Part shown: positions 29,474 to 42,738 of the stretch, piece after piece | Layout of the letters: each line of letters begins with the position of its first letter | Position numbering within the stretch: the stretch's first letter is position 1 | Assembly (NCBI GenBank): GCA_029237775.1 | Contig: JAQZBR010000002.1 | Location: 62,001 to 126,000, forward strand | DNA: 64,000 bases | Direction: 5' to 3' | Source of the DNA: Bacteroidota bacterium | GTDB taxonomy: Bacteria; Bacteroidota; Bacteroidia; 2-12-FULL-35-15 | Position numbers and translations under genes: made by a program | The notes under the pieces: generated by a model | Told to the model about the DNA's origin: nothing | The model's database searches: none | What the model saw: the letters and a program-made list of their open reading frames with translations, nothing else

Positions 29474-29914
29474 ATGCAGAAGAAGTTACACTTTTTATTA
29501 GCGGATGATGATCCTGACGATCGCACTTTTTTTGAGATCACATTAAAATCATTATCACCCGGGGCAAAGCTTGAGACAGTTAAAGATGGTGCGGAGCTTT
29601 TGAAATTTCTGGAAAAGAATAAAAAACATTTGCCGGATGTTTTGTTCCTAGATATCAATATGCCAAAAAAGAATGGTGCGGAATGTCTTGCAGAAATAAA
29701 ACGCAATGATGATTTAAAGAAGTTACCTGTTATTATGTATTCCACTTCCCTGCATGAGGATGCTGCGGATCAGTTTTATGCTAAGGGTGCGCATTATTAT
29801 ATTCAAAAGGGTGATCTGAATGAGCTTGAAAAGCTTCTCAAAAAAGTGATCAAAATATTTTCGCGGGAAAATATCGCCCGCCCTTCAAGGGAAGAGTTTA
29901 TATTTAAATCATAG
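29474..29914 (+). CDS. Single-domain response regulator
   Basis: 146 residues, a receiver domain with no output domain. The acidic pair is in ADDDPDD, the phosphoryl-accepting Asp60 in LFLDINMP, Thr/Ser in YSTS and Lys in IQKGD. It lies 19 bases before the CheB-CheR-kinase gene and is its likely phosphotransfer partner. It resembles the receiver proteins at 33423 and 37018. Confidence 0.92.
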   Translation: MQKKLHFLLADDDPDDRTFFEITLKSLSPGAKLETVKDGAELLKFLEKNKKHLPDVLFLDINMPKKNGAECLAEIKRNDDLKKLPVIMYSTSLHEDAADQFYAKGAHYYIQKGDLNELEKLLKKVIKIFSRENIARPSREEFIFKS

Positions 29915-29933: not shown

Positions 29934-32900
29934 ATGGCTTCTTCAAAAGTGAGCAACAAACCTAAGCTGGTCAGAAAAAAAAGTGTTCCTGCGGGTGTGA
30001 AAAGAAGTAAGAGATTACCGGTGACACTTGTTGCGATAGGGGCTTCGGCGGGAGGCCTTGAAGCCGTGTGCGAGCTCCTGGAGAATTTGCCTCCTGATAC
30101 AGGCCTCGCTTACATTTACGTGCAGCATCTCAGCCCTGACCACGAAAGCTCGCTTCCGCTTTTACTATCGAGATCAACAAAAATGGAGGTTTTAGAGGTT
30201 TCTAATCTTTTACGGATCCTGCCGGATCACGTTTACGTTTGTACGCCAAACAAAGAGATCCGCGTGGAAAATGGCAAAATCAGATTAAGCCAGAGAAAAG
30301 AAACGCTTCCATACCTGCCTATTGATGATTTTTTTATTTCACTCGCAGGCGGGTATGATGGAACGTTAATCGGTATCATCCTCTCAGGTAATGCAACTGA
30401 TGGTTCTAAGGGCCTGAAAGCTATTCTGGGAGCGGGCGGAATTACGTTTGCTCAGGATAACTCTTCTAAATATAACAGTATGCCTAACTCGGCTATTGAT
30501 GAGGGGGGTGCAAGCTTCGTGCTGCCACCAAAAGAGATTGCTGCTGAATTAGTTCATTTTGCAAAAATGGGTGTTGTTGGATTGGTGAAGCGTATAGACA
30601 AAAATGATGCGATCGCGGATTCTGACCCTTCGCTCAATACTATTTTTACATTGCTTCATAAGAACAGCGGAGTTGATTTCAGCCATTATAAGATGTCAAC
30701 GATTAAAAGACGTATCCAAAGGCGGATACAAAAAAATAATCTTAAAAGCATCAAAGAATATGTAAAGCTTTTTAAAGCAAACGATAAAGAGGCAGAGCTG
30801 CTTTACAATGATTTGCTGATAAATGTCACAAGCTTTTTCAGGGACAAGGAGGTATTCAGACATCTGAAGACAAGATTCTTTCCTAAACTATTGAAAGAAA
30901 AAAAAGACAATAAAATATTACGGATCTGGGTTCCCGCCTGCTCATCGGGAGAGGAAGTGTATTCGATCGCCATGCAGATCGTGGAGATCCAGGAAAAGCT
31001 GAATATAAAGATCCCTGTTCGGATTTTTGCGTCAGATCTTAGCGAGCAAGTTCTGAACGAAGCGCGGCTTGGGGAATATAACGCGAATGATGTAGCGCCA
31101 ATACCGCAGCCATATCTTAACCGTTTTTTCACGAAGACAAACGGAAATTACAGAGTGGTGAAAGAGCTGAGGGAAATGTGCGTCTTTGTGATGCATAATG
31201 TGCTGCGTGATCCCCCTTTTTCCAGGATGGACTTTGTCAGTTGTCGTAATCTTCTTATATATTTTGATGTTGCCGCCCAGAAAAAAGTAATGGCAACACT
31301 GCATTTCGCATTGAATGATTCGGGTTATTTACTCCTTGGGAAATCGGAAACTATAGGTACTTCATCATTACTGTTCACGCAGCTGGATATCAGCAATAAT
31401 ATTTATTCAAGAAAGAAAAACTCTGACCAGGCCAATTTCAGGGATCTTGAACCGCGCTTCATCCGGAATGCCATTTCAGCATCACCTACCGTATTTCATA
31501 AGCAAACCACCTTTGATTTTGCCGGAAAAATTAAGGAAGAGGAGAACAACGATCTTGATACAGCCATCAATGCTTTGCTGTTGGCGAATTTTACACCGGC
31601 CTGCGCTGTGATCAATAAGAATATGGAGATCATCCAGTTCAGGGGAAATACTTCTTTATTTCTCAGCCATTCTACGGGTAAAGCAAGCCTGAATATATTA
31701 AAAATGGTGCGGCCGGAATTCTCCTTTGAGCTACGGGACGCGATCAGAAGGGTACTTAAAACTAAACAGCAGGTAACTAAGGAAGGGATTGAGGTTAACA
31801 TAGGTTCGAAAATCTTTTTGGTAAAACTGATCGTTGAGCTCGTGAATGTAAAATGGGATGAGACCCTTATGCTGGTGGTTTTCAAGCCGGAAGAACATAG
31901 GGAAATCGGTAAGACTTTAAAAGGCCAGAAAGGGAACGAGGCGCAAAAAGACAGGAGGATAAAAAAGCTGACAGAAGAGCTGAATACTGCCTCAGCAGAA
32001 ATGCACGAATTTATTCTTTCACAGGAGCAGGCTTACGAAGAGCTACAGGCTGCCAATGAAGAGATCGTTTCAACCAACGAGGAGTTTCAGACACTGAACG
32101 AGGAACTGGAAAGTACCAAGGAAGAGATCGAGGCGACTAATGAAGAGCTGACCTCTACCAATCAGGAGCTGCAGATGCGTAATGAATTACTGATGGAGTC
32201 AGACAGTTATTCTGAAGCGATCATTTCCACACTGCATGAACCAATGCTTGTGCTGAATAAAAAATTTGAAGTTAAATCGGCAAGCAAATCATTTTGTAAA
32301 AAATTCAATCTTGAGAGAGAAGAGATTGAAGGAAAACCATTCTTCCAATTCGGCAACAGGCAATGGAATATTCCGGAGTTAAAGGAGCGCCTCGAAGAGA
32401 TCATTGCCAAAAACGTGAAGTTTGAAAATTTCGAAGTGACTCACTCCTTTCCTGATAAGGGGGAGATGACCATGATGCTGAATGCAAGCAGGATCGTTCA
32501 GAAGATCCACGGAGAGCAGCTTATTCTTCTCGCGATAGAGGATATCACTGATATTAAGCGGAAACAGTCGGAGGACAAGGAAGCTTTTCAACAAAACATC
32601 CGAAATCATAAGGAAGAGAAACTGCTCCTCGAAAAAGCAGTAAAGAGAAGAACAAAGCAGCTTGAACATAAAAATGAGGAATTGCAGTCTGTAAACAAGG
32701 ATCTGGAGGCCTTCAATTATGTTTCCAGTCATGACCTTCAGGAGCCTTTGCGGAAGATCCAGAATTTTACTTCACTGATACTTAGAGATAAAGAACTTCA
32801 GATCTCCAAGGAGGGAAGCGCTTACCTGAAAAAGCTTCAGGAAACGTCCAAAAGAATGCGGAGCCTCATTGAGGATCTGTTGTTATACTCACGTACCAAA

Positions 32901-33416
32901 AGCGCTGAAAGGAATTTTGAAAAAGAAAAGATTTACAATATCATACTGGATGCAAAGAATGAACAGCGTGAGATGATCACAAAAAAGAAAGCACAGATCG
33001 TTATCAAAGCAGACTGTGAAGTGAACATCATTAAATTTCAGTTCATGCAGCTGTTCAGTAATCTGATCAGTAATTCGCTTAAGTTTTCAAGCCCGAAAAG
33101 AAAGCCGAGGATCACGATCGAGTGTAAGGTTTCAAAAGGAAGTGTGTTAAAATTTAAAAAGCTCTCTCCGGATATAAAATATTGTCACATCGTGTTTACT
33201 GATAACGGAATAGGTTTCGATGCTAAGTACAGAGAGCGGATCTTCGAAGTATTCCAGCGGTTACACACACTTGTGGAATATGAAGGGACGGGAATCGGCT
33301 TATCTATCTGCAAGCGCATTGTAGAAAATCATGAAGGATTTATGATCGCTTCGGGTGAGCCGGACCGGGGAGCGAGATTTGATATTTACATTCCTGCCAA
33401 ACTTGGCGAAGAATAA
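29934..33416 (+). CDS. CheB-CheR-PAS-histidine kinase fusion
   Basis: 1160 residues. CheB domain about 28-200 (GASAGGLEA, VQHLSPDH, SGNATDGSKG). CheR methyltransferase about 235-495 (FSHYKMSTIKRRIQRRI, SAM-binding WVPACSSGEEVYSIAM, FASDLSEQ). Then a diverged PAS-like stretch, a long coiled coil (about 670-765) of repeated Glu-Glu-x-Asn-Glu-Glu type, a PAS domain (about 770-880), a HisKA helix with the phosphorylated His in SSHDLQEPLRKI, and an HATPase_c domain with TDNGIGFD and GTGIGLSIC. This is a known hybrid type in Bacteroidota and Proteobacteria. It could methylate and demethylate a partner and signal through the neighbouring receivers. No membrane segment is seen. Confidence 0.93.
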   Translation: MASSKVSNKPKLVRKKSVPAGVKRSKRLPVTLVAIGASAGGLEAVCELLENLPPDTGLAYIYVQHLSPDHESSLPLLLSRSTKMEVLEVSNLLRILPDHVYVCTPNKEIRVENGKIRLSQRKETLPYLPIDDFFISLAGGYDGTLIGIILSGNATDGSKGLKAILGAGGITFAQDNSSKYNSMPNSAIDEGGASFVLPPKEIAAELVHFAKMGVVGLVKRIDKNDAIADSDPSLNTIFTLLHKNSGVDFSHYKMSTIKRRIQRRIQKNNLKSIKEYVKLFKANDKEAELLYNDLLINVTSFFRDKEVFRHLKTRFFPKLLKEKKDNKILRIWVPACSSGEEVYSIAMQIVEIQEKLNIKIPVRIFASDLSEQVLNEARLGEYNANDVAPIPQPYLNRFFTKTNGNYRVVKELREMCVFVMHNVLRDPPFSRMDFVSCRNLLIYFDVAAQKKVMATLHFALNDSGYLLLGKSETIGTSSLLFTQLDISNNIYSRKKNSDQANFRDLEPRFIRNAISASPTVFHKQTTFDFAGKIKEEENNDLDTAINALLLANFTPACAVINKNMEIIQFRGNTSLFLSHSTGKASLNILKMVRPEFSFELRDAIRRVLKTKQQVTKEGIEVNIGSKIFLVKLIVELVNVKWDETLMLVVFKPEEHREIGKTLKGQKGNEAQKDRRIKKLTEELNTASAEMHEFILSQEQAYEELQAANEEIVSTNEEFQTLNEELESTKEEIEATNEELTSTNQELQMRNELLMESDSYSEAIISTLHEPMLVLNKKFEVKSASKSFCKKFNLEREEIEGKPFFQFGNRQWNIPELKERLEEIIAKNVKFENFEVTHSFPDKGEMTMMLNASRIVQKIHGEQLILLAIEDITDIKRKQSEDKEAFQQNIRNHKEEKLLLEKAVKRRTKQLEHKNEELQSVNKDLEAFNYVSSHDLQEPLRKIQNFTSLILRDKELQISKEGSAYLKKLQETSKRMRSLIEDLLLYSRTKSAERNFEKEKIYNIILDAKNEQREMITKKKAQIVIKADCEVNIIKFQFMQLFSNLISNSLKFSSPKRKPRITIECKVSKGSVLKFKKLSPDIKYCHIVFTDNGIGFDAKYRERIFEVFQRLHTLVEYEGTGIGLSICKRIVENHEGFMIASGEPDRGARFDIYIPAKLGEE

Positions 33417-33872: not shown

Positions 33873-34126
33873 AAAAACGTTTTATTGAACAACGAATTGC
33901 GTCATCCTGATCAGAGTAAATTATGTAATACTTATGAAAGGTATTGTATTTATTTTATTCCACTAATATTAACACAATTGTAAACTCTTATATTCCGGCA
34001 AAGTTGAGATTATGATCCGGAAACCTGTTATATAATTTTAACAGTCAGTTATATAAATCACATGTTTTTCATGATGTATATTTAGTTTCCTCTTTAAAAC
34101 GCTTAATAAATATGCCCGCTAATGCG

Positions 34127-35641: not shown

Positions 35642-35748
35642 ATTACAAGGTTCTTCTCAATTTAAGTCTGTCAACCAGATGTCAATGCGATCTTGTTTTT
35701 GATTAATTCGGCACGCTTTTCTTTTTATTAAATCGTGGAGGTATTTCT

Positions 35749-35764
35749 ACACAAAAATTTGTGT
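35749..35764. promoter_or_regulatory. Perfect inverted repeat upstream of a kinase gene, possible operator
   Basis: ACACAAA and TTTGTGT are separated by two bases and lie eight bases before a -7 box (TATCTTTG, 35772-35779), in the spacer of the promoter. A repressor or activator could bind here. Confidence 0.4.
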
Positions 35765-35771
35765 GCAGAAG

Positions 35772-35779
35772 TATCTTTG
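35772..35779 (+). promoter_or_regulatory. -7 element of the PAS kinase operon
   Basis: TATCTTTG fits TAnnTTTG and ends four bases before the ATG at 35784, so the transcript would be nearly leaderless. No -33 TTG is found at the normal distance. Confidence 0.45.
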
Positions 35780-35783
35780 CCGC

Positions 35784-37010
35784 ATGGAAATTGATTATCA
35801 GGCGCTTTTTGAAAAGTCTCCGGGATTGTTTTTAGTTCTCGATCCTGAACTGAAAATTGTCACTGTTACGGACGCGTATCTTGCTGCAACGATGACTAGC
35901 CGTGAATCAATTGTCAGCAAGAATATCTTTGATGTCTTTCCTGACAATCCGAATGATGCAGATGCCGATGGCGTGAATAAACTTAAGATCTCCCTGCAAA
36001 ACGTTATCTCCCTTAAAGTACCGGATAACATGCCAATTCAAAAGTATGACATCAAAAAATCAGAACATGAATTCGAGGAGCGTTACTGGAGTCCTTACAA
36101 TTTACCTATCCTCGACAAAGCAGGCAATGTAACTTTAATCATTCATAGTGTTGAGGATGTGACTTCCATTATTCAATCGCGCAGGCTGGAAACTCTTCAA
36201 AAGGATGAGAATATCTCGCTGAACAATCAGAACAAACTCAAGAGCCAGGAGATCTATGAACATATAAGACAAAAAGACGAGGTTAATCTGGAACTTAAAA
36301 GAACAAATGCGGTGCTGGAAGAAAAAACCAGGCTGCTTGAATTATCGAATGAAGATCTTGCTCTATTTGCAGAAACTGCCGCACATGATATAAAAGCGCC
36401 ATTTCGAAGCATTGGAGGGCATCTTGAAATAATTTTCAAGAAAGTAAAGAACCTGAATGATGAAAGTATAAATCAAAGCATTGAAAGCATCCGTAAAGGA
36501 AGGGAACGCATAAGCCTTTTGTTGGATGATCTGCTCACTTTTGCAAGGGTTAGCAGATCTGCAGAAGGCGCGGTGAAGATCGACCTGAATAAGCTGTTGC
36601 AGGAAGTGACCGCTAATCTTGAATACAGCATCACCGAGAAAAAAGCACAGATCAGGTACCCGCATAATATGCCTGTAATTACGGGGACCTATTTCCAGGT
36701 ATTGCAATTGTTTCAGAACCTCATTGGTAATGCACTGAAATTTTGTGAAGATGTTCCCGTCATCGAAGTTTCATTTGCAGATACAGGTACTCAAATAGAA
36801 TTTGCAATTAAGGATAACGGAATAGGCATTGAGAAGGATTATTTTGAAAAGATATTTGATCCCTTTCAACGACTTCATGGAGTAGATGCTTATGCAGGAA
36901 CCGGCCTGGGACTTGCTATCTGTAAGAGAATTGTCGATCAGCATGGCGGATCCATCAGAGTTTCCTCAGATAAGAATGGCACTACTTTTTATTTTTCATT
37001 ACCACTTTAA
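35784..37010 (+). CDS. PAS-domain histidine kinase
   Basis: 408 residues from the ATG at 35784 (a GTG seven codons upstream lies within the promoter region). PAS domain about 5-130 (FEKSPGLFLVLDPELKIV, EDVTSI), coiled coil about 135-190, HisKA with the phosphorylated His in ETAAHDIKAPFRSI, and HATPase_c with IKDNGIGIE and GTGLGLAIC. There is no membrane helix, so it senses something inside the cell through the PAS domain. The downstream receiver gene starts eight bases after its stop, and the two should form a two-component pair. Confidence 0.92.
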   Translation: MEIDYQALFEKSPGLFLVLDPELKIVTVTDAYLAATMTSRESIVSKNIFDVFPDNPNDADADGVNKLKISLQNVISLKVPDNMPIQKYDIKKSEHEFEERYWSPYNLPILDKAGNVTLIIHSVEDVTSIIQSRRLETLQKDENISLNNQNKLKSQEIYEHIRQKDEVNLELKRTNAVLEEKTRLLELSNEDLALFAETAAHDIKAPFRSIGGHLEIIFKKVKNLNDESINQSIESIRKGRERISLLLDDLLTFARVSRSAEGAVKIDLNKLLQEVTANLEYSITEKKAQIRYPHNMPVITGTYFQVLQLFQNLIGNALKFCEDVPVIEVSFADTGTQIEFAIKDNGIGIEKDYFEKIFDPFQRLHGVDAYAGTGLGLAICKRIVDQHGGSIRVSSDKNGTTFYFSLPL

Positions 37011-37017
37011 TAACAGC

Positions 37018-37482
37018 ATGGATTTAAAAGATAAGCATATAATGGTCATTGATGATGATGATGACGACAGACAGCTTTTTTGCAGGGCATTAGGACAGGT
37101 TTCAACAAAGATTGGCTGCTTAAGAGTTTCAAGCGGGAAGGCTGCATGGGAATACCTTAGTAACTCTGAGAACACGGTTCCTGATGTGATTTTTCTCGAT
37201 ATAAATATGCCTGTAATGACCGGTTGGGAATTTCTCACTAAGATAAAAAGGAACGAAAAAGTTAAGAGTATACCTGTGATAATGTTCTCTACGTCCTCGA
37301 ATAAGCGGGATATAGATATCGCATTTGATCTTGGAGCAGAGAGCTATTGCGTGAAGCCGGACGAGCCGGAGGATCTTCAAAATATTCTGTATTTAATTGC
37401 CCAGAACATAGGAAATAACTTTAAATCATTTTTAAAGTCGGGCTTCGCTTCTAAATATTTCCATATACCAACAACTATTTAA
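37018..37482 (+). CDS. Single-domain response regulator
   Basis: 154 residues from the ATG at 37018. The open frame extends back into the kinase gene, but this start gives a standard receiver: VIDDDDDDRQL, phosphoryl-accepting Asp61 in IFLDINMP, FSTS and a Lys in CVKPD. It is the third stand-alone receiver in the island, eight bases after the kinase and 11 bases before the RsbQ-like gene. Confidence 0.92.
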   Translation: MDLKDKHIMVIDDDDDDRQLFCRALGQVSTKIGCLRVSSGKAAWEYLSNSENTVPDVIFLDINMPVMTGWEFLTKIKRNEKVKSIPVIMFSTSSNKRDIDIAFDLGAESYCVKPDEPEDLQNILYLIAQNIGNNFKSFLKSGFASKYFHIPTTI

Positions 37483-37493
37483 AACAATCAAAC

Positions 37494-38303
37494 ATGAAGA
37501 CAGATGTACTTAAACGTAACAATGTTAAAATTACCGGTAAAGGAAATCAGCCAATGGTTTTCGCTCACGGATTCGGATGTGATCAGAATATGTGGCGATA
37601 TATCACTCCTGCTTTTGAAGATAATTATAAGATAGTTCTTTTTGATTATGTAGGTGCCGGTAACTCAGATCTTAAATCTTACGATAAGGATCGTTACAGC
37701 GATCTTGCCGGTTATGCTGAAGATATTTTAGAGATCTGTGAGGAACTGGATCTTAAAAAAGTAATCTTCGTGGGCCATTCAGTAAGCAGCATGATAGGTA
37801 TGCTTGCAGCCATCAAGAGCCCTGAACGTTTCGCGGATGTGATCATGGTGGGACCCTCTGCCCGTTACATCAATGATGAGGGTTATCTGGGTGGCTTTGC
37901 TAAAAAAGATATAATTGACTTGCTGGACACGATGGAGAAAAACTACATAGGATGGGCAAATTTCCTTGCACCGGCAATTATGAAGAATCCTAAAAGCCCG
38001 GAACTAGGAGCTGAGTTAACTCAAAGTTTCTGTTCAACCGATCCGATAATTGCCCGCCAGTTTGCCGAAGTGACATTCTTATCAGACAATCGCGGAGACC
38101 TAAAAAAAATGAAAACACCGTCACTCATTATGCAGTGCTCTGATGATATGATCGCGCCACTCGAAGTCGGGGATTACCTTCATAAGAATATTCCGAACAG
38201 TTCTCTTAAAGTGTTAGCGGCAACGGGTCATTGTCCTCACATGAGCGCACCGGAAGAAACTGTTGCGGTGATAAAGGAATATTTAGCAATGAAATCAAAT
38301 TAA
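37494..38303 (+). CDS. RsbQ-like alpha/beta hydrolase
   Basis: 269 residues of alpha/beta hydrolase fold. The catalytic triad is Ser96 in VGHSVSSM, Asp218 in CSDDMIAP and His246 in ATGHCPHMSAP, with the oxyanion region in AHGFGCDQNMW. These segments and positions agree with RsbQ of Bacillus subtilis, which works with the PAS phosphatase RsbP in energy-stress signalling and is thought to supply a small ligand or cofactor for its PAS domain. Here the stop codon is two bases before the TTG that best starts a PAS histidine kinase. The pairing with a PAS protein is thus kept while the output is different. Confidence 0.85.
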   Translation: MKTDVLKRNNVKITGKGNQPMVFAHGFGCDQNMWRYITPAFEDNYKIVLFDYVGAGNSDLKSYDKDRYSDLAGYAEDILEICEELDLKKVIFVGHSVSSMIGMLAAIKSPERFADVIMVGPSARYINDEGYLGGFAKKDIIDLLDTMEKNYIGWANFLAPAIMKNPKSPELGAELTQSFCSTDPIIARQFAEVTFLSDNRGDLKKMKTPSLIMQCSDDMIAPLEVGDYLHKNIPNSSLKVLAATGHCPHMSAPEETVAVIKEYLAMKSN

Positions 38304-38305
38304 TT

Positions 38306-39523
38306 TTGGATCAAAAGCTTGATAAGGCGCCAAATGGGTATATCGCCTTTAATGATAAGGGAATTATCATTGAGGTGAATAGCACTATTTGTGAAATGCT
38401 GGGATATAGTAAACAGGAACTGGAGCAAACCAAGTTCGAGCTGCTTCTTGACATTGCCGGAAGAATGTTCTTCCAGACTCATTTTTTTCCAATGCTGAAA
38501 ATGCAGCAAAAAGTGGATGAGATCTTTCTTAACATGAAGGCGAAGGATTCGACTGTGGTCCCCGTTATAACCAGTAGTGTGAGAGAAGAGAATCCTGATG
38601 GAGCAGAGTGTGTGTGCGTATTCTTACCAGTACATAACAGAAGGAAGTATGAAGATGAAATTCTTGCTGCAAAAAAGCAGGCACAGGAGGCTCTTAAGGA
38701 AAATAAAGAGCTGATTGAAGCAAGAGAAGAGGTCAGCAGGCACAGTAAAGAACTGGATAAAAGGATAGTTGAAATTGACAGGGTGAATAACGAGATCCTG
38801 CAGTTCAATAATATTATAAATCATGAGATGCAGGAATGTATCAGGAAGATCCTTCTTTTTTCAAGACTTGGAAAAAAAGAGAACCAACTTAATTATTTTG
38901 ATAATATTATAGAAACTGCAAACAAACTTAAAACGATCAACGCGTCTTTAAATTTATTTATCGACCTAGATAAGGATAAGAATGTATTTGGATCTGTTGA
39001 CCTGAATAAATGCCTGGATGAAGCCACCGCTCAGGTTCTGGAAGAAACAGGTTTTTCCGGTGTAGAGATAATTAAAGATGAGTTGCCGGAAATTGAAGGT
39101 TCTTTTGAAGATCTGAAAGTACTTTTTTATCATTTGATTATGAATGCTGTTAAATTCAGAAATGGTAATGAAGTGACCATTTGTATCTCATCCGTTATCT
39201 TTAAAGAAAATATTTATAAGATGATTAGTCGTAAGTATGAATATCAGGATGTGGTGCGGATCACTATAAGCGACAATGGGCAGGGGTTTGATAATAAGCA
39301 TAAAGAACACGTTTTCGCCATTCTGAAAAAGCTGAATCACGAAAAAGGAGGAAGCGGTATAGGATTAGCCATGTGTAAAAAGATCCTGAATAACCACCAT
39401 GGAAGTATCTCTATTGATTCAAAAGAGAATGTAGGTACTACCGTGAAACTTGTTTTACCTGTTGAACATCAAAAAGATGCTGAACCTGATAAGTTAAAAC
39501 CTGATCACAGCGTTAAAACCTAG
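38306..39523 (+). CDS. PAS-domain histidine kinase paired with the RsbQ-like hydrolase
   Basis: About 405 residues if started at the TTG at 38306. An ATG at 38231 is in frame but would overlap the hydrolase by 73 bases and add a segment unlike a PAS start. PAS domain about 1-115 (PNGYIAFNDKGIIIEV, CEMLGYSKQEL), a coiled coil, a diverged HisKA helix with His in IINHEMQECI, and HATPase_c with ISDNGQGFD and GGSGIGLAMC. The phosphorylation helix lacks the usual Pro, so its kinase activity should be tested. Its last 30 bases overlap the convergent gene at 39494. Confidence 0.83.
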   Translation: MDQKLDKAPNGYIAFNDKGIIIEVNSTICEMLGYSKQELEQTKFELLLDIAGRMFFQTHFFPMLKMQQKVDEIFLNMKAKDSTVVPVITSSVREENPDGAECVCVFLPVHNRRKYEDEILAAKKQAQEALKENKELIEAREEVSRHSKELDKRIVEIDRVNNEILQFNNIINHEMQECIRKILLFSRLGKKENQLNYFDNIIETANKLKTINASLNLFIDLDKDKNVFGSVDLNKCLDEATAQVLEETGFSGVEIIKDELPEIEGSFEDLKVLFYHLIMNAVKFRNGNEVTICISSVIFKENIYKMISRKYEYQDVVRITISDNGQGFDNKHKEHVFAILKKLNHEKGGSGIGLAMCKKILNNHHGSISIDSKENVGTTVKLVLPVEHQKDAEPDKLKPDHSVKT

Positions 39524-40090
39524 GCCAGAGGTTCCGATATTAATCTTATCCATCATCTTGTAAAGTTTCTTCCCATTCTTTTTATGGATCACATACATGC
39601 TTGTGTCAAAAAGAAACAAAAAACCTCCCTGAAGGATCAGAGAGTTTCCCCAGCCTTTGAATTTATCGTGTTGCTTAATATCATTTTTAGCTCTTTCTGT
39701 TAAATAGAGGCCAACTGAAGAATATACAAGGTCAAGTGCAGCATTAGCTATATATGTCGACTCAGTGTTGCTTTGCCATTGGAGTGTTTTATTCAGGTCA
39801 AGCTCATTTTTCTCTTTCGGGAGCAGGCTTGCAGCAACAATGATCACATTCACACCGTTGAATATCATATTCATTTCATGAAAATGTCTGTCAGTTCCTT
39901 TTGATCCGGAGTAAAGCGCAGCGCTTACTCCGATATTAGCAAGAGCCCAACCACCAAGCACTTTTAAACCCACAGATGTCTTTTTGTTACGTGACTTGTT
40001 GAAATCATAAAGCTCTGAAGTAGTCGGCCCCTGAGCATAAATAATATTAGCAGATAAAAAAAGGAAGGAAACAAGTATGAGTCTTTTCAT
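39494..40090 (-). CDS. Small membrane protein at the end of the carotenoid operon (DUF6992-like)
   Basis: 198 residues with a signal-like N-terminus (ending IIYAQ) and several hydrophobic segments (VLGGWALANIGVSAALYSG, FNGVNVIIVAASLL, NSLILQGGFLFLFDTSMYVI). I believe it belongs to the DUF6992 type of Bacteroidota membrane proteins. Its start overlaps the stop of the lycopene cyclase gene by four bases, which suggests it is made with the carotenoid enzymes. Function unknown. Confidence 0.68.
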   Translation of the reverse strand: MKRLILVSFLFLSANIIYAQGPTTSELYDFNKSRNKKTSVGLKVLGGWALANIGVSAALYSGSKGTDRHFHEMNMIFNGVNVIIVAASLLPKEKNELDLNKTLQWQSNTESTYIANAALDLVYSSVGLYLTERAKNDIKQHDKFKGWGNSLILQGGFLFLFDTSMYVIHKKNGKKLYKMMDKINIGTSGLGFNAVIRF

Positions 40091-40764
40091 GATCTTCTGT
40101 TTTTAAAAAATTCGTATATCGTAATTACTAATAGAAATTGAAGCATTCCATAGAATACATCTTCTATCGGTATAGTGTATATACGGGAATTTAAATTTTC
40201 CAGATTGTTATAGATAAGAACGGGCATTGCAGTAAGCACTCCGTTCACGAGCAGGAATGGAATGATGCAGACCGCCCAGGCTATGTAATACCTGCCCAGG
40301 TAAGCTGTTTGAAATACAAAATGATGTAACAGTAAGAATCCTGCAAGAGAAAGAAAAGTCACCGCAGTGTAAAACTTGTCCAGGTTGAAAGCAGATACCA
40401 ACAATAACCCCGTAACCATTCCGAGGGTAATGGTTTTGATGAGTGTTGGAGAAAGATCCTCCTTCATAAAGTAATTCATTACTTCATAAATAAAGACGCA
40501 AGAAAAGGGAATGATAAAGAAAAAAAGCCATTCTTCAATTGGCAGGTTTAGAAGATATATTCCAAGTAGATACTCATTGTTAAAACTCCAGATCCCGATC
40601 TTGGTGAACCAGATATCCCACGCGATGAAGATAAGGGCACTGATTAGTATGGCCGGAAATAAAGATTTCCACTTCTTATGATAAGCTATCTTATCCTCAA
40701 AGCTTTTATAAAGCGGGTAGGAGAGAGTGAATAACAGTACAAAAACATAAGTGAGATGTCTCAT
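40087..40764 (-). CDS. Lycopene cyclase, fused CrtYc-CrtYd type
   Basis: 225 residues with about seven hydrophobic helices in two homologous halves. Each half has the Pro-hydrophobic-Glu-Glu/Asp motif of this cyclase family: NLPIEEWLFFF in the first and TIPIEDVFYGM in the second. The two halves correspond to the separate CrtYc and CrtYd subunits of actinobacteria and to archaeal/fungal fused cyclases. It forms beta-rings on lycopene. It is 12 bases downstream of cruF. Confidence 0.88.
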   Translation of the reverse strand: MRHLTYVFVLLFTLSYPLYKSFEDKIAYHKKWKSLFPAILISALIFIAWDIWFTKIGIWSFNNEYLLGIYLLNLPIEEWLFFFIIPFSCVFIYEVMNYFMKEDLSPTLIKTITLGMVTGLLLVSAFNLDKFYTAVTFLSLAGFLLLHHFVFQTAYLGRYYIAWAVCIIPFLLVNGVLTAMPVLIYNNLENLNSRIYTIPIEDVFYGMLQFLLVITIYEFFKNRRS

Positions 40765-40776
40765 TCAATTTATTAT

Positions 40777-41415
40777 CTAATTCCAGAAATACAATAAAGC
40801 AAAAAACACAAGCTGTGTCAGATATAATACCGGAGCGAGTTTGTTTTGTTTATTGAAGTTCATTCTGTGAAATAATAAGAGAAAAATAAAAGAAATAATG
40901 AACCATGCGATGTAATTTCGAAGAGGGATGATGCCGTCAAGCCAGGACCAGAAGTGATATTTGGGAGCAGATTGTTCTATCAGCATATCGAGGATGACCA
41001 GTAGCAAAGCCCCAATCCCGCATTTTATAAAAATATTAACCGGAACTTTATTGCTGATAATGCCTGCCGAATAAACAAGTATGAACCAGTTAAGTGAAAT
41101 GATCGCAGGCACATACAGGATGGTCCAGCCAAGAGTTTCTTCATACCAATAGTGCCCGAATATCCAGCCTGTTCTGACTCCAACGACTTCGATAAGATAT
41201 CCGCAATAACTGACTATTAAAATGAAAATTATAAAGGACCGGTTGAAACCCTTGTGATTTATAAGAAGCAGAAGAGTACTTAAAATTAAATTAAAAGGAG
41301 TCAGGGATAAAAAGAGATCATGATACTTTGAATGGAGTGCGATCAAACCTGCTAAATGGACAATTACCAATACCACCGCAGAAATCAAGAAGGTCTTATT
41401 TTTTTGTTCCTGCAT
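40777..41415 (-). CDS. cruF: CruF-type carotenoid 1',2'-hydratase
   Basis: 212 residues, largely membrane-embedded. VVGVRTGWIFGHYWYEETLG and VPAIISLNWF are diagnostic of the CruF/DUF422 family, and DMLIEQSAPKYHFWSW holds further conserved acidic and aromatic residues. CruF adds water to the psi-end of gamma-carotene or lycopene, giving a 1'-hydroxy group as in saproxanthin, myxol or bacterioruberin-type pigments. Its presence with one cyclase predicts a carotenoid with one ring and one hydroxylated open end. It overlaps the upstream small gene by 20 bases. Confidence 0.83.
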   Translation of the reverse strand: MQEQKNKTFLISAVVLVIVHLAGLIALHSKYHDLFLSLTPFNLILSTLLLLINHKGFNRSFIIFILIVSYCGYLIEVVGVRTGWIFGHYWYEETLGWTILYVPAIISLNWFILVYSAGIISNKVPVNIFIKCGIGALLLVILDMLIEQSAPKYHFWSWLDGIIPLRNYIAWFIISFIFLLLFHRMNFNKQNKLAPVLYLTQLVFFALLYFWN

Positions 41416-41905
41416 TGATTATTAATTTTTCTTTCTCAGTTAACAATTTTGAACCGACAAGATATTCCGCCATTTTACTTTTTAAAGAAGCCGGTTTAAC
41501 TGTATCGAAATTTGAGACGATAAATTTTTTATCTGAAGAGATCTGTTTGTTATATCCCAATGCTTTCGGGCAATTGGTCTGGATCGTAAACCGGAGAAAC
41601 CTCAGCTCAACATCAGAACTGTCGGTATTTACAGATTGTTCTATCAGTTTTTTACCTGAATTAAAGAGTTTTAGTTTTTCTGCTTTCGAAGTTACATGGT
41701 TGGCCATAGCCGCGGTGATCGCGCCTTTATAACCCATAAACAAATTGTCGCTTACTCCGGCCAGGCTTACTTTTTTGTAAAGGCTTGCGCATGCGGAACT
41801 GTCAGTATTAAGCCGGTAGTAGTCTTTACGGAGAGTTTCCAGGCTTACCTGTGATTGTAAGAAGGAAGCGGTAAAAACAAGTATAAAAAAAAGGAGCTTT
41901 TTCAT
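41396..41905 (-). CDS. Small secreted protein inside the carotenoid operon
   Basis: 169 residues with a signal peptide (MKKLLFFILVFTASFLQSQ). The mature part is helical and contains two Cys (SACASLYKK and TNCPKALGY). It overlaps cruF by 20 bases at one end and crtB by one base at the other, so it is translated together with carotenoid enzymes. I do not recognise the family. A periplasmic role in carotenoid handling is possible but nothing in the sequence shows it. Confidence 0.7.
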   Translation of the reverse strand: MKKLLFFILVFTASFLQSQVSLETLRKDYYRLNTDSSACASLYKKVSLAGVSDNLFMGYKGAITAAMANHVTSKAEKLKLFNSGKKLIEQSVNTDSSDVELRFLRFTIQTNCPKALGYNKQISSDKKFIVSNFDTVKPASLKSKMAEYLVGSKLLTEKEKLIINAGTKK

Positions 41906-42738
41906 CAGATCATGTTAAAGCTATGTTTGAGATATGATCCGAAGAATAATAAGTATTTTTTGGAATCCGGGATCCGGATGCGGGTCTGAATGACCTTTTC
42001 CGCAGGAGTTCGCTGGATCTTTTTAAAAAGAGAGATGTAATAAATGTATGCAAGATAAACCCCGAGCCTTGCTTTGCGTGGAAGCATCTTTATACCTCTC
42101 AGCCCGGCATCAAAATCCTTTTGGATATCAGCTTCAATTTCTTTTTTAGTTTGAGCATTAAAGTTAGTTGCGTCAAACCCGGGAAAATAGGAACGGCCAA
42201 GAGTATGAACATCAGCATTAAGATCACGTAAAAAATTGATCTTTTGAAAAGCTGAGCCAAGCTTCATTGCATCCGGTTTCAGCTTAAGGTATTCTTTTTC
42301 GTTGCCTTCAACAAAGATCTTCAGGCACATAAGACCGACCACCTCAGCGGATCCCAGGATGTACTCTTCGTAACCCTCACGGTTATAATTTGTTTTATCA
42401 AGATCCATTTCCATGCTTCTCAGAAATGTGTCGATCAGCTCAATATCAATGTGGTATTTATTTACCGTGTTCTGGAACGAATGAAGAATAGGGTTTAGGC
42501 TGATCTTTTCATTGATAGCATCGTGTGTGTCTTTTTTAAATCGGTTTAACAAATTGCGTTTATCCGTTCCGTGGAATGTGTCAACGATCTCATCCGCAAA
42601 CCTTACAAAACCGTAGATCGCGTGAATAGGCATAATAAAATCCTTGTGTAACAAACTTACACCCAACGAAAATGAAGTACTGTAGCTGGTTGTGACCAGC
42701 TTGCTGCATTTGTATGTTACTTCGTTATATAATTCCAT
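41905..42738 (-). CDS. crtB: Phytoene synthase
   Basis: 277 residues of the squalene/phytoene synthase family. FVRFADEIVD is the first aspartate-rich motif, and INFLRDLNADVHTLGRSYFP the second, both binding prenyl diphosphate through magnesium. YEEYILGSAEVVGLMCLKIF lies between them. It condenses two geranylgeranyl diphosphates to phytoene. No crtE is in the window, so the substrate is supplied elsewhere. A 135-base gap containing repeats separates it from crtI. Confidence 0.93.
   Translation of the reverse strand: MELYNEVTYKCSKLVTTSYSTSFSLGVSLLHKDFIMPIHAIYGFVRFADEIVDTFHGTDKRNLLNRFKKDTHDAINEKISLNPILHSFQNTVNKYHIDIELIDTFLRSMEMDLDKTNYNREGYEEYILGSAEVVGLMCLKIFVEGNEKEYLKLKPDAMKLGSAFQKINFLRDLNADVHTLGRSYFPGFDATNFNAQTKKEIEADIQKDFDAGLRGIKMLPRKARLGVYLAYIYYISLFKKIQRTPAEKVIQTRIRIPDSKKYLLFFGSYLKHSFNMI

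Follow-up and report, generated by a model that had tools for sequence, protein, structure and literature searches.

The closest described systems are the bipartite modules of Nadezhdin, Brody and Price (2011; PMC3183031), in which an RsbQ hydrolase is paired with a PAS protein whose output is a PPM phosphatase, a diguanylate cyclase or a histidine kinase. The paper reports 45 RsbQ-PAS pairs and states the histidine kinase as the Gram-negative output, a statement repeated in 2025 (PMC12143880). The PAS signature given in PMC3183031 consists of C10, L13, L48, a basic residue at position 53, F55, a hydrophobic residue at 56, H or Y at 59, E72 and P86. In B. subtilis, RsbQ binds the PAS domain of RsbP, and as of that paper a target was known only for the B. 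subtilis phosphatase branch. Two models are offered there: either the hydrolase makes a ligand for the PAS domain, or the hydrolase itself is the receptor (Model 2).

We analysed a window of 64,000 nucleotides from a Bacteroidota genome, which contains a run of four genes behind a promoter-like block:

35706..35780, + strand: promoter-like block, TCGTGGAGGTATTTC ... TATCTTTG (TATCTTTG at 35772-35779), alignable with the sequence that precedes the receiver gene of G009, a genome of the same genus
35784..37010, + strand: HK1, the upstream PAS histidine kinase with HisKA and HATPase_c domains (Pfam HATPase_c 1.6e-26, HisKA 6.3e-8)
37018..37482, + strand: stand-alone receiver, a single-domain response regulator (Pfam Response_reg 2.6e-21)
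37494..38303, + strand: RsbQ-type alpha/beta hydrolase, 269 aa (phmmer, Pfam Abhydrolase_1, triad S96/D218/H246)
38306..39523, + strand: HK2, an RsbP-type PAS domain, a long helical linker and a histidine kinase, 405 aa (Pfam PAS_9 and HATPase_c, PAS signature, motifs, AlphaFold2)

Judged from its sequence, the locus is a Bacteroidota member of the already known and widespread RsbQ-PAS module with histidine-kinase output. It resembles the kinase-type modules of PMC3183031 in having the hydrolase directly upstream, an N-terminal RsbP-type PAS domain, a helical linker and a kinase output, together with the triad and most of the PAS signature residues. It differs from them in its PAS position 10, which is Asn and not Cys, in having a separate neighbouring receiver where the paper describes fused receivers (three cases), in the extra PAS kinase of the operon, and in its Bacteroidota host (the word 'Bacteroidetes' is absent from the main text of the paper). 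With B. subtilis RsbQ-RsbP the locus shares an orthologous hydrolase and the type of PAS domain, but it has a histidine kinase (HATPase_c) in place of the PPM phosphatase. The output at this locus is thus not of the PPM type, and we found no evidence here of the sigma-B energy-stress pathway of RsbQ-RsbP. The first-pass annotation of this DNA had drawn the same contrast with the Bacillus PAS-PP2C pair, correctly, though it was already published (PMC3183031). Its further suggestion of a distinct hydrolase-dependent sensing system is mostly superseded, since that paper described such pairs in 2011. Hydrolase-dependent sensing by a PAS kinase is the best reading of the pair. The finding overturns nothing established; to the known pairing the locus adds two things, a receiver gene whose place next to the pair is conserved and, in the same apparent operon, a further kinase.

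Among solved structures, the best phmmer match of the hydrolase was B. subtilis RsbQ (1wom, E 2.3e-104). The next relatives were Olei00960 (3qvm) and then the plant receptors KAI2/D14 (E about 1e-61 to 1e-50). The plant receptors are homologous and have an identical triad, but they are less similar to the hydrolase than RsbQ is, and their partners are different proteins. The triad Ser96, Asp218 and His246, named already in the first-pass annotation, did not vary across 105 aligned homologues. The protein encoded at 37494 is, as far as its sequence tells, an RsbQ orthologue with an intact active site. The module is patchy, since a close hydrolase was present in 22 of 395 genomes sampled from the phylum and in 2 of 25 searched genomes of the host genus, the host genome counted. 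In the hydrolase tree the output labels group together, yet several changes are needed, and many deep forks are open.

The hydrolase stop codon TAA occupies positions 38301-38303, and HK2 starts 2 nt beyond it with TTG (38306-38308), as had been proposed for this DNA. This start is supported because it places P9-x10-G11 of HK2 in register with C10 of the published hPhG motif of RsbP, and because in G009 (locus L030) a TTG at the equivalent place, 5 nt past the hydrolase stop, also opens the kinase. The PAS domain covers residues 1-118 according to Pfam and the AlphaFold2 model. Aligned with the published signature, it has L48, R53, F55, F56, H59, P62, E72 and P86; besides the Asn at position 10, the departure is Ile for L13. 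H59 is the counterpart of Y59 in B. subtilis RsbP and fits the published H/Y class. HK2 retains the F-alpha motif QTHxxP, and the invariant residues in an alignment of 22 related kinases include Q57-T58-H59, E72 and H173. The PAS domain of HK2 apparently passes the RsbP-type signature test, except for the change of C10 to Asn. The DIT motif at the PAS end is absent from HK2, whose PAS ends CVFLPVHNRRKYEDE, in contrast to the PAS of HK1, which ends HSVEDVT. A sequence search of the PDB with the PAS domain alone found no relatives. The AlphaFold2 model of HK2 (pLDDT 82.5, pTM 0.60) consists of a PAS fold, a single unbroken helix at residues 112-188, a DHp hairpin and a CA domain. The predicted helix and HATPase_c fit the coiled-coil-like linker of at least 21 residues, leading to a PPM, histidine kinase or GGDEF output, that characterises the RsbQ-PAS module. 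The full-length solved matches of the model include the LOV-coiled-coil-kinase 4gcz, with low whole-length TM scores, probably because the domains are placed flexibly. The predicted overall architecture of HK2 is like that of the LOV-coiled-coil-histidine kinases, which differ in their LOV photochemistry and have no hydrolase partner.

We consider it highly probable that the locus encodes the known RsbQ-PAS bipartite sensor with a kinase output, in which a small-molecule signal passes to the PAS domain, to His173 and to the receiver. A small cytoplasmic molecule would be bound, and probably hydrolysed, by the RsbQ-type hydrolase. By analogy with B. subtilis, the hydrolase would dock onto dimeric HK2 at the F-alpha face of its PAS domain, signalling would depend on the hydrolase active site, and the change would travel along the coiled-coil linker helix to the phosphorylation helix. 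Autophosphorylation of His173 would be altered, and with it phosphotransfer to the adjacent stand-alone receiver. Within this explanation there is a variant to which we give somewhat less than an even chance: the hydrolase, like KAI2/D14, would be the primary sensor, the occupancy of its pocket would alter the contact with PAS, and catalysis would merely reset the switch, so that nothing is delivered into PAS. The similarity of the hydrolase to KAI2/D14, at the E values given above, favours this variant. The title of a 2024 study by Melville et al. points the same way, in that B. subtilis reportedly perceives butenolides via RsbQ. The variant corresponds to the published Model 2 (PMC3183031). 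The invariance of the triad in all 105 homologues is predicted by both models, and sequence cannot separate ligand delivery from reception by the hydrolase.

The genes HK1, receiver, RsbQ and HK2 are separated by 7, 11 and 2 nt. In G009 a receiver with 69% identity to the receiver at 37018..37482 directly precedes RsbQ, and the counterpart of HK2 has 66% identity. Among the genes of the window, only the receiver and HK2 recur as close neighbours of the G009 hydrolase, and the receiver-RsbQ-kinase block is retained there although the surroundings differ. By this comparison the conserved unit in the two genomes is receiver-RsbQ-PAS kinase. HK1 was rejected as a conserved part of the module: no orthologue was found in G009, where the best match (39%) covers the kinase core only. 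The earlier placing of the upstream PAS kinase and the receiver in one run with the pair thus agrees with the spacing, but HK1 lies outside the conserved unit. The block in front of HK1, about 75 bases long, aligned with the region upstream of the G009 receiver with a local alignment score of 62, while the maximum in 1000 shuffles was 32. The core of the block, TCGTGGAGGYATTTC, has a single mismatch-free occurrence in each of the two genomes. We infer that the block is a promoter. HK1 stands between it and the receiver here and not in G009. Since the block that precedes the receiver in G009 precedes HK1 here, HK1 is probably in the same transcription unit and co-transcribed with receiver-RsbQ-HK2. 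An alignment for a scar of HK1 in the G009 leader scored 11, below the shuffle 95th percentile of 17, and therefore neither gain nor loss of HK1 can be called. TATCTTTG ends 4 nt ahead of the HK1 ATG (35784); if it served as a -7 box of the Bacteroidota type, the transcript would begin at this ATG or just past it, an unexplained position for a start. The control block of the host also contains the inverted repeat ACACAAA-AA-TTTGTGT, which G009 does not have.

The receiver is the probable phosphoacceptor partner of HK2. At 18 of about 40 other Bacteroidota kinase loci of the non-hybrid kind, the pair has a stand-alone receiver as its direct neighbour, encoded either on the same strand (before or after the pair) or on the opposite one; at other loci, in Bacteroidota and beyond, the kinase itself carries a receiver at its C-terminus as a fusion. 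A domain search counted about 45 stand-alone receivers in the genome, at which density about 2.5% of random two-gene units would adjoin one, a rate that serves as a guide and not as a probability because the surveyed loci are related. The receivers next to the pair in other genera have about 30-40% identity to the one at 37018..37482, at which level an association that arose repeatedly and descent from one ancestor are equally likely, and these receivers are at most candidate orthologues. A four-gene phosphorelay, in which RsbQ-gated HK2 and a differently sensing HK1 from one transcription unit would feed one receiver and integrate a metabolite signal sensed by the hydrolase with a second signal, the diverged H-box tuning HK2 towards phosphatase action, seems to us unlikely.

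The HATPase_c domain of HK2 scored 67 bits against a Pfam cut-off of 26.4 (E 2.4e-18), and Pfam HisKA gave no match in HK2 at E 0.001. The region corresponding to HisKA aligns with relatives bearing the usual H-box. In the H-box of HK2, NHEMQECIRK, Cys stands at H+5 where Pro is usual. This Cys occurred in 5 of 74 aligned rows, which are repeat copies of two distinct proteins, HK2 and its G009 counterpart, while the phospho-accepting His was present in 73 of the 74. His173 was conserved without exception in the 22-kinase alignment, and HK2 has the H (H173), N (HLIMNAVKFR), G1 (DNGQGF) and G2 (GGSGIGL) motifs. The phosphorylation helix had been described as diverged. This holds for the unscored HisKA domain and the Cys at H+5, but His173 is present and invariant; since it is kept, the divergence around it does not demonstrate an inactive kinase. 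These motifs are read most simply as those of an active kinase, and HK2 may possibly be biased between kinase and phosphatase action. It is rather improbable that HK2 is a pseudokinase acting as a scaffold or phosphatase while HK1 phosphorylates the receiver. Such a division is suggested by the failure of Pfam HisKA, by the Cys at H+5 in both same-genus proteins, by the presence of HK1 with an intact HisKA in the same apparent operon, and by a relative with a degraded ATP-binding domain at locus L031. However, HK2 retains His173 and the ATP-binding motifs, and the receiver-RsbQ-kinase unit exists in G009 without an HK1 orthologue. The relative itself (L031:2456-3712) is a PAS kinase linked to RsbQ, in which the ATP-binding motifs are degraded (DNAN-Y, KYINFGL) while the PAS signature and the His are intact; it is possibly a pseudokinase member of the RsbQ-PAS module.

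The survey of RsbQ loci consisted of one scan of named genomes and of the 395-genome phylum sample, with duplicates of this locus and of G009 removed. Together they gave 102 distinct loci whose downstream ORF could be read; as the scan was limited to its best 80 loci, the output counts are not population frequencies. A PAS protein was directly downstream of RsbQ in 87 of these 102 loci, so the co-occurrence in other genomes on which the earlier proposal depended does exist. Among these loci the outputs were PAS-kinase at 68 loci, PAS-GGDEF at 8 and PAS-PPM at 8; 3 loci had a PAS domain without a called output, and 15 were other or unreadable by the ORF rule. The RsbQ-PAS adjacency is far from chance, and the pair is conserved across phyla with three output types, those also described in PMC3183031. 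That the hydrolase and the kinase are merely co-transcribed and form no joint sensor is very improbable, given this adjacency in many phyla and the binding of RsbQ to the RsbP PAS domain in B. subtilis (PMC3183031). The survey supplies kinase-type loci in which a candidate receiver lies next to the pair, so that phosphotransfer to such a receiver could be a biochemical assay in the search for the ligand and in deciding between the two published models. In cyanobacterial loci, including L073, L075, L078 and L087, the outputs of closely related RsbQ genes alternate between GGDEF and hybrid kinase, which makes these loci a good place for studying output-domain exchange. The host genome (4.1 Mb) contains 46 SpoIIE/PPM phosphatase (PF07228) matches, many of them in ORFs of 650-1100 aa, which is a large expansion; none of them adjoins the single close RsbQ of the genome.

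The four-gene run is flanked by a CrtI-type gene at 34112 and by lycopene cyclase and phytoene synthase at 40087-42738. Strigolactones, the ligands of the related D14, derive from carotenoids. With this location and these ligands in mind, sensing of a carotenoid-derived molecule could be proposed, but it is hardly credible: the carotenoid proteins of the window had no match at E 1e-8 at the other surveyed RsbQ loci, and in G009 the CrtI, lycopene cyclase, carotenoid-synthesis and phytoene synthase genes stand in the same order on a contig other than that of RsbQ, where the position of the four-gene run is taken by an unrelated gene for about 366 aa. A carotenoid linkage of the module was rejected, as it is conserved neither in G009 nor at the surveyed loci, and as far as can be seen the link is coincidental. 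The product of this gene (L133:6653-7753, minus strand) looks from its sequence like a lipoprotein that contains TolB-like repeats, and the interval between the conserved carotenoid genes is a variable site. At 29934-33416 the window also encodes a CheB-CheR-PAS-kinase-like fusion; it is 1160 aa long, has receivers at 29474 and 33423 as neighbours, and is conserved next to the carotenoid locus of G009 with 78% identity.
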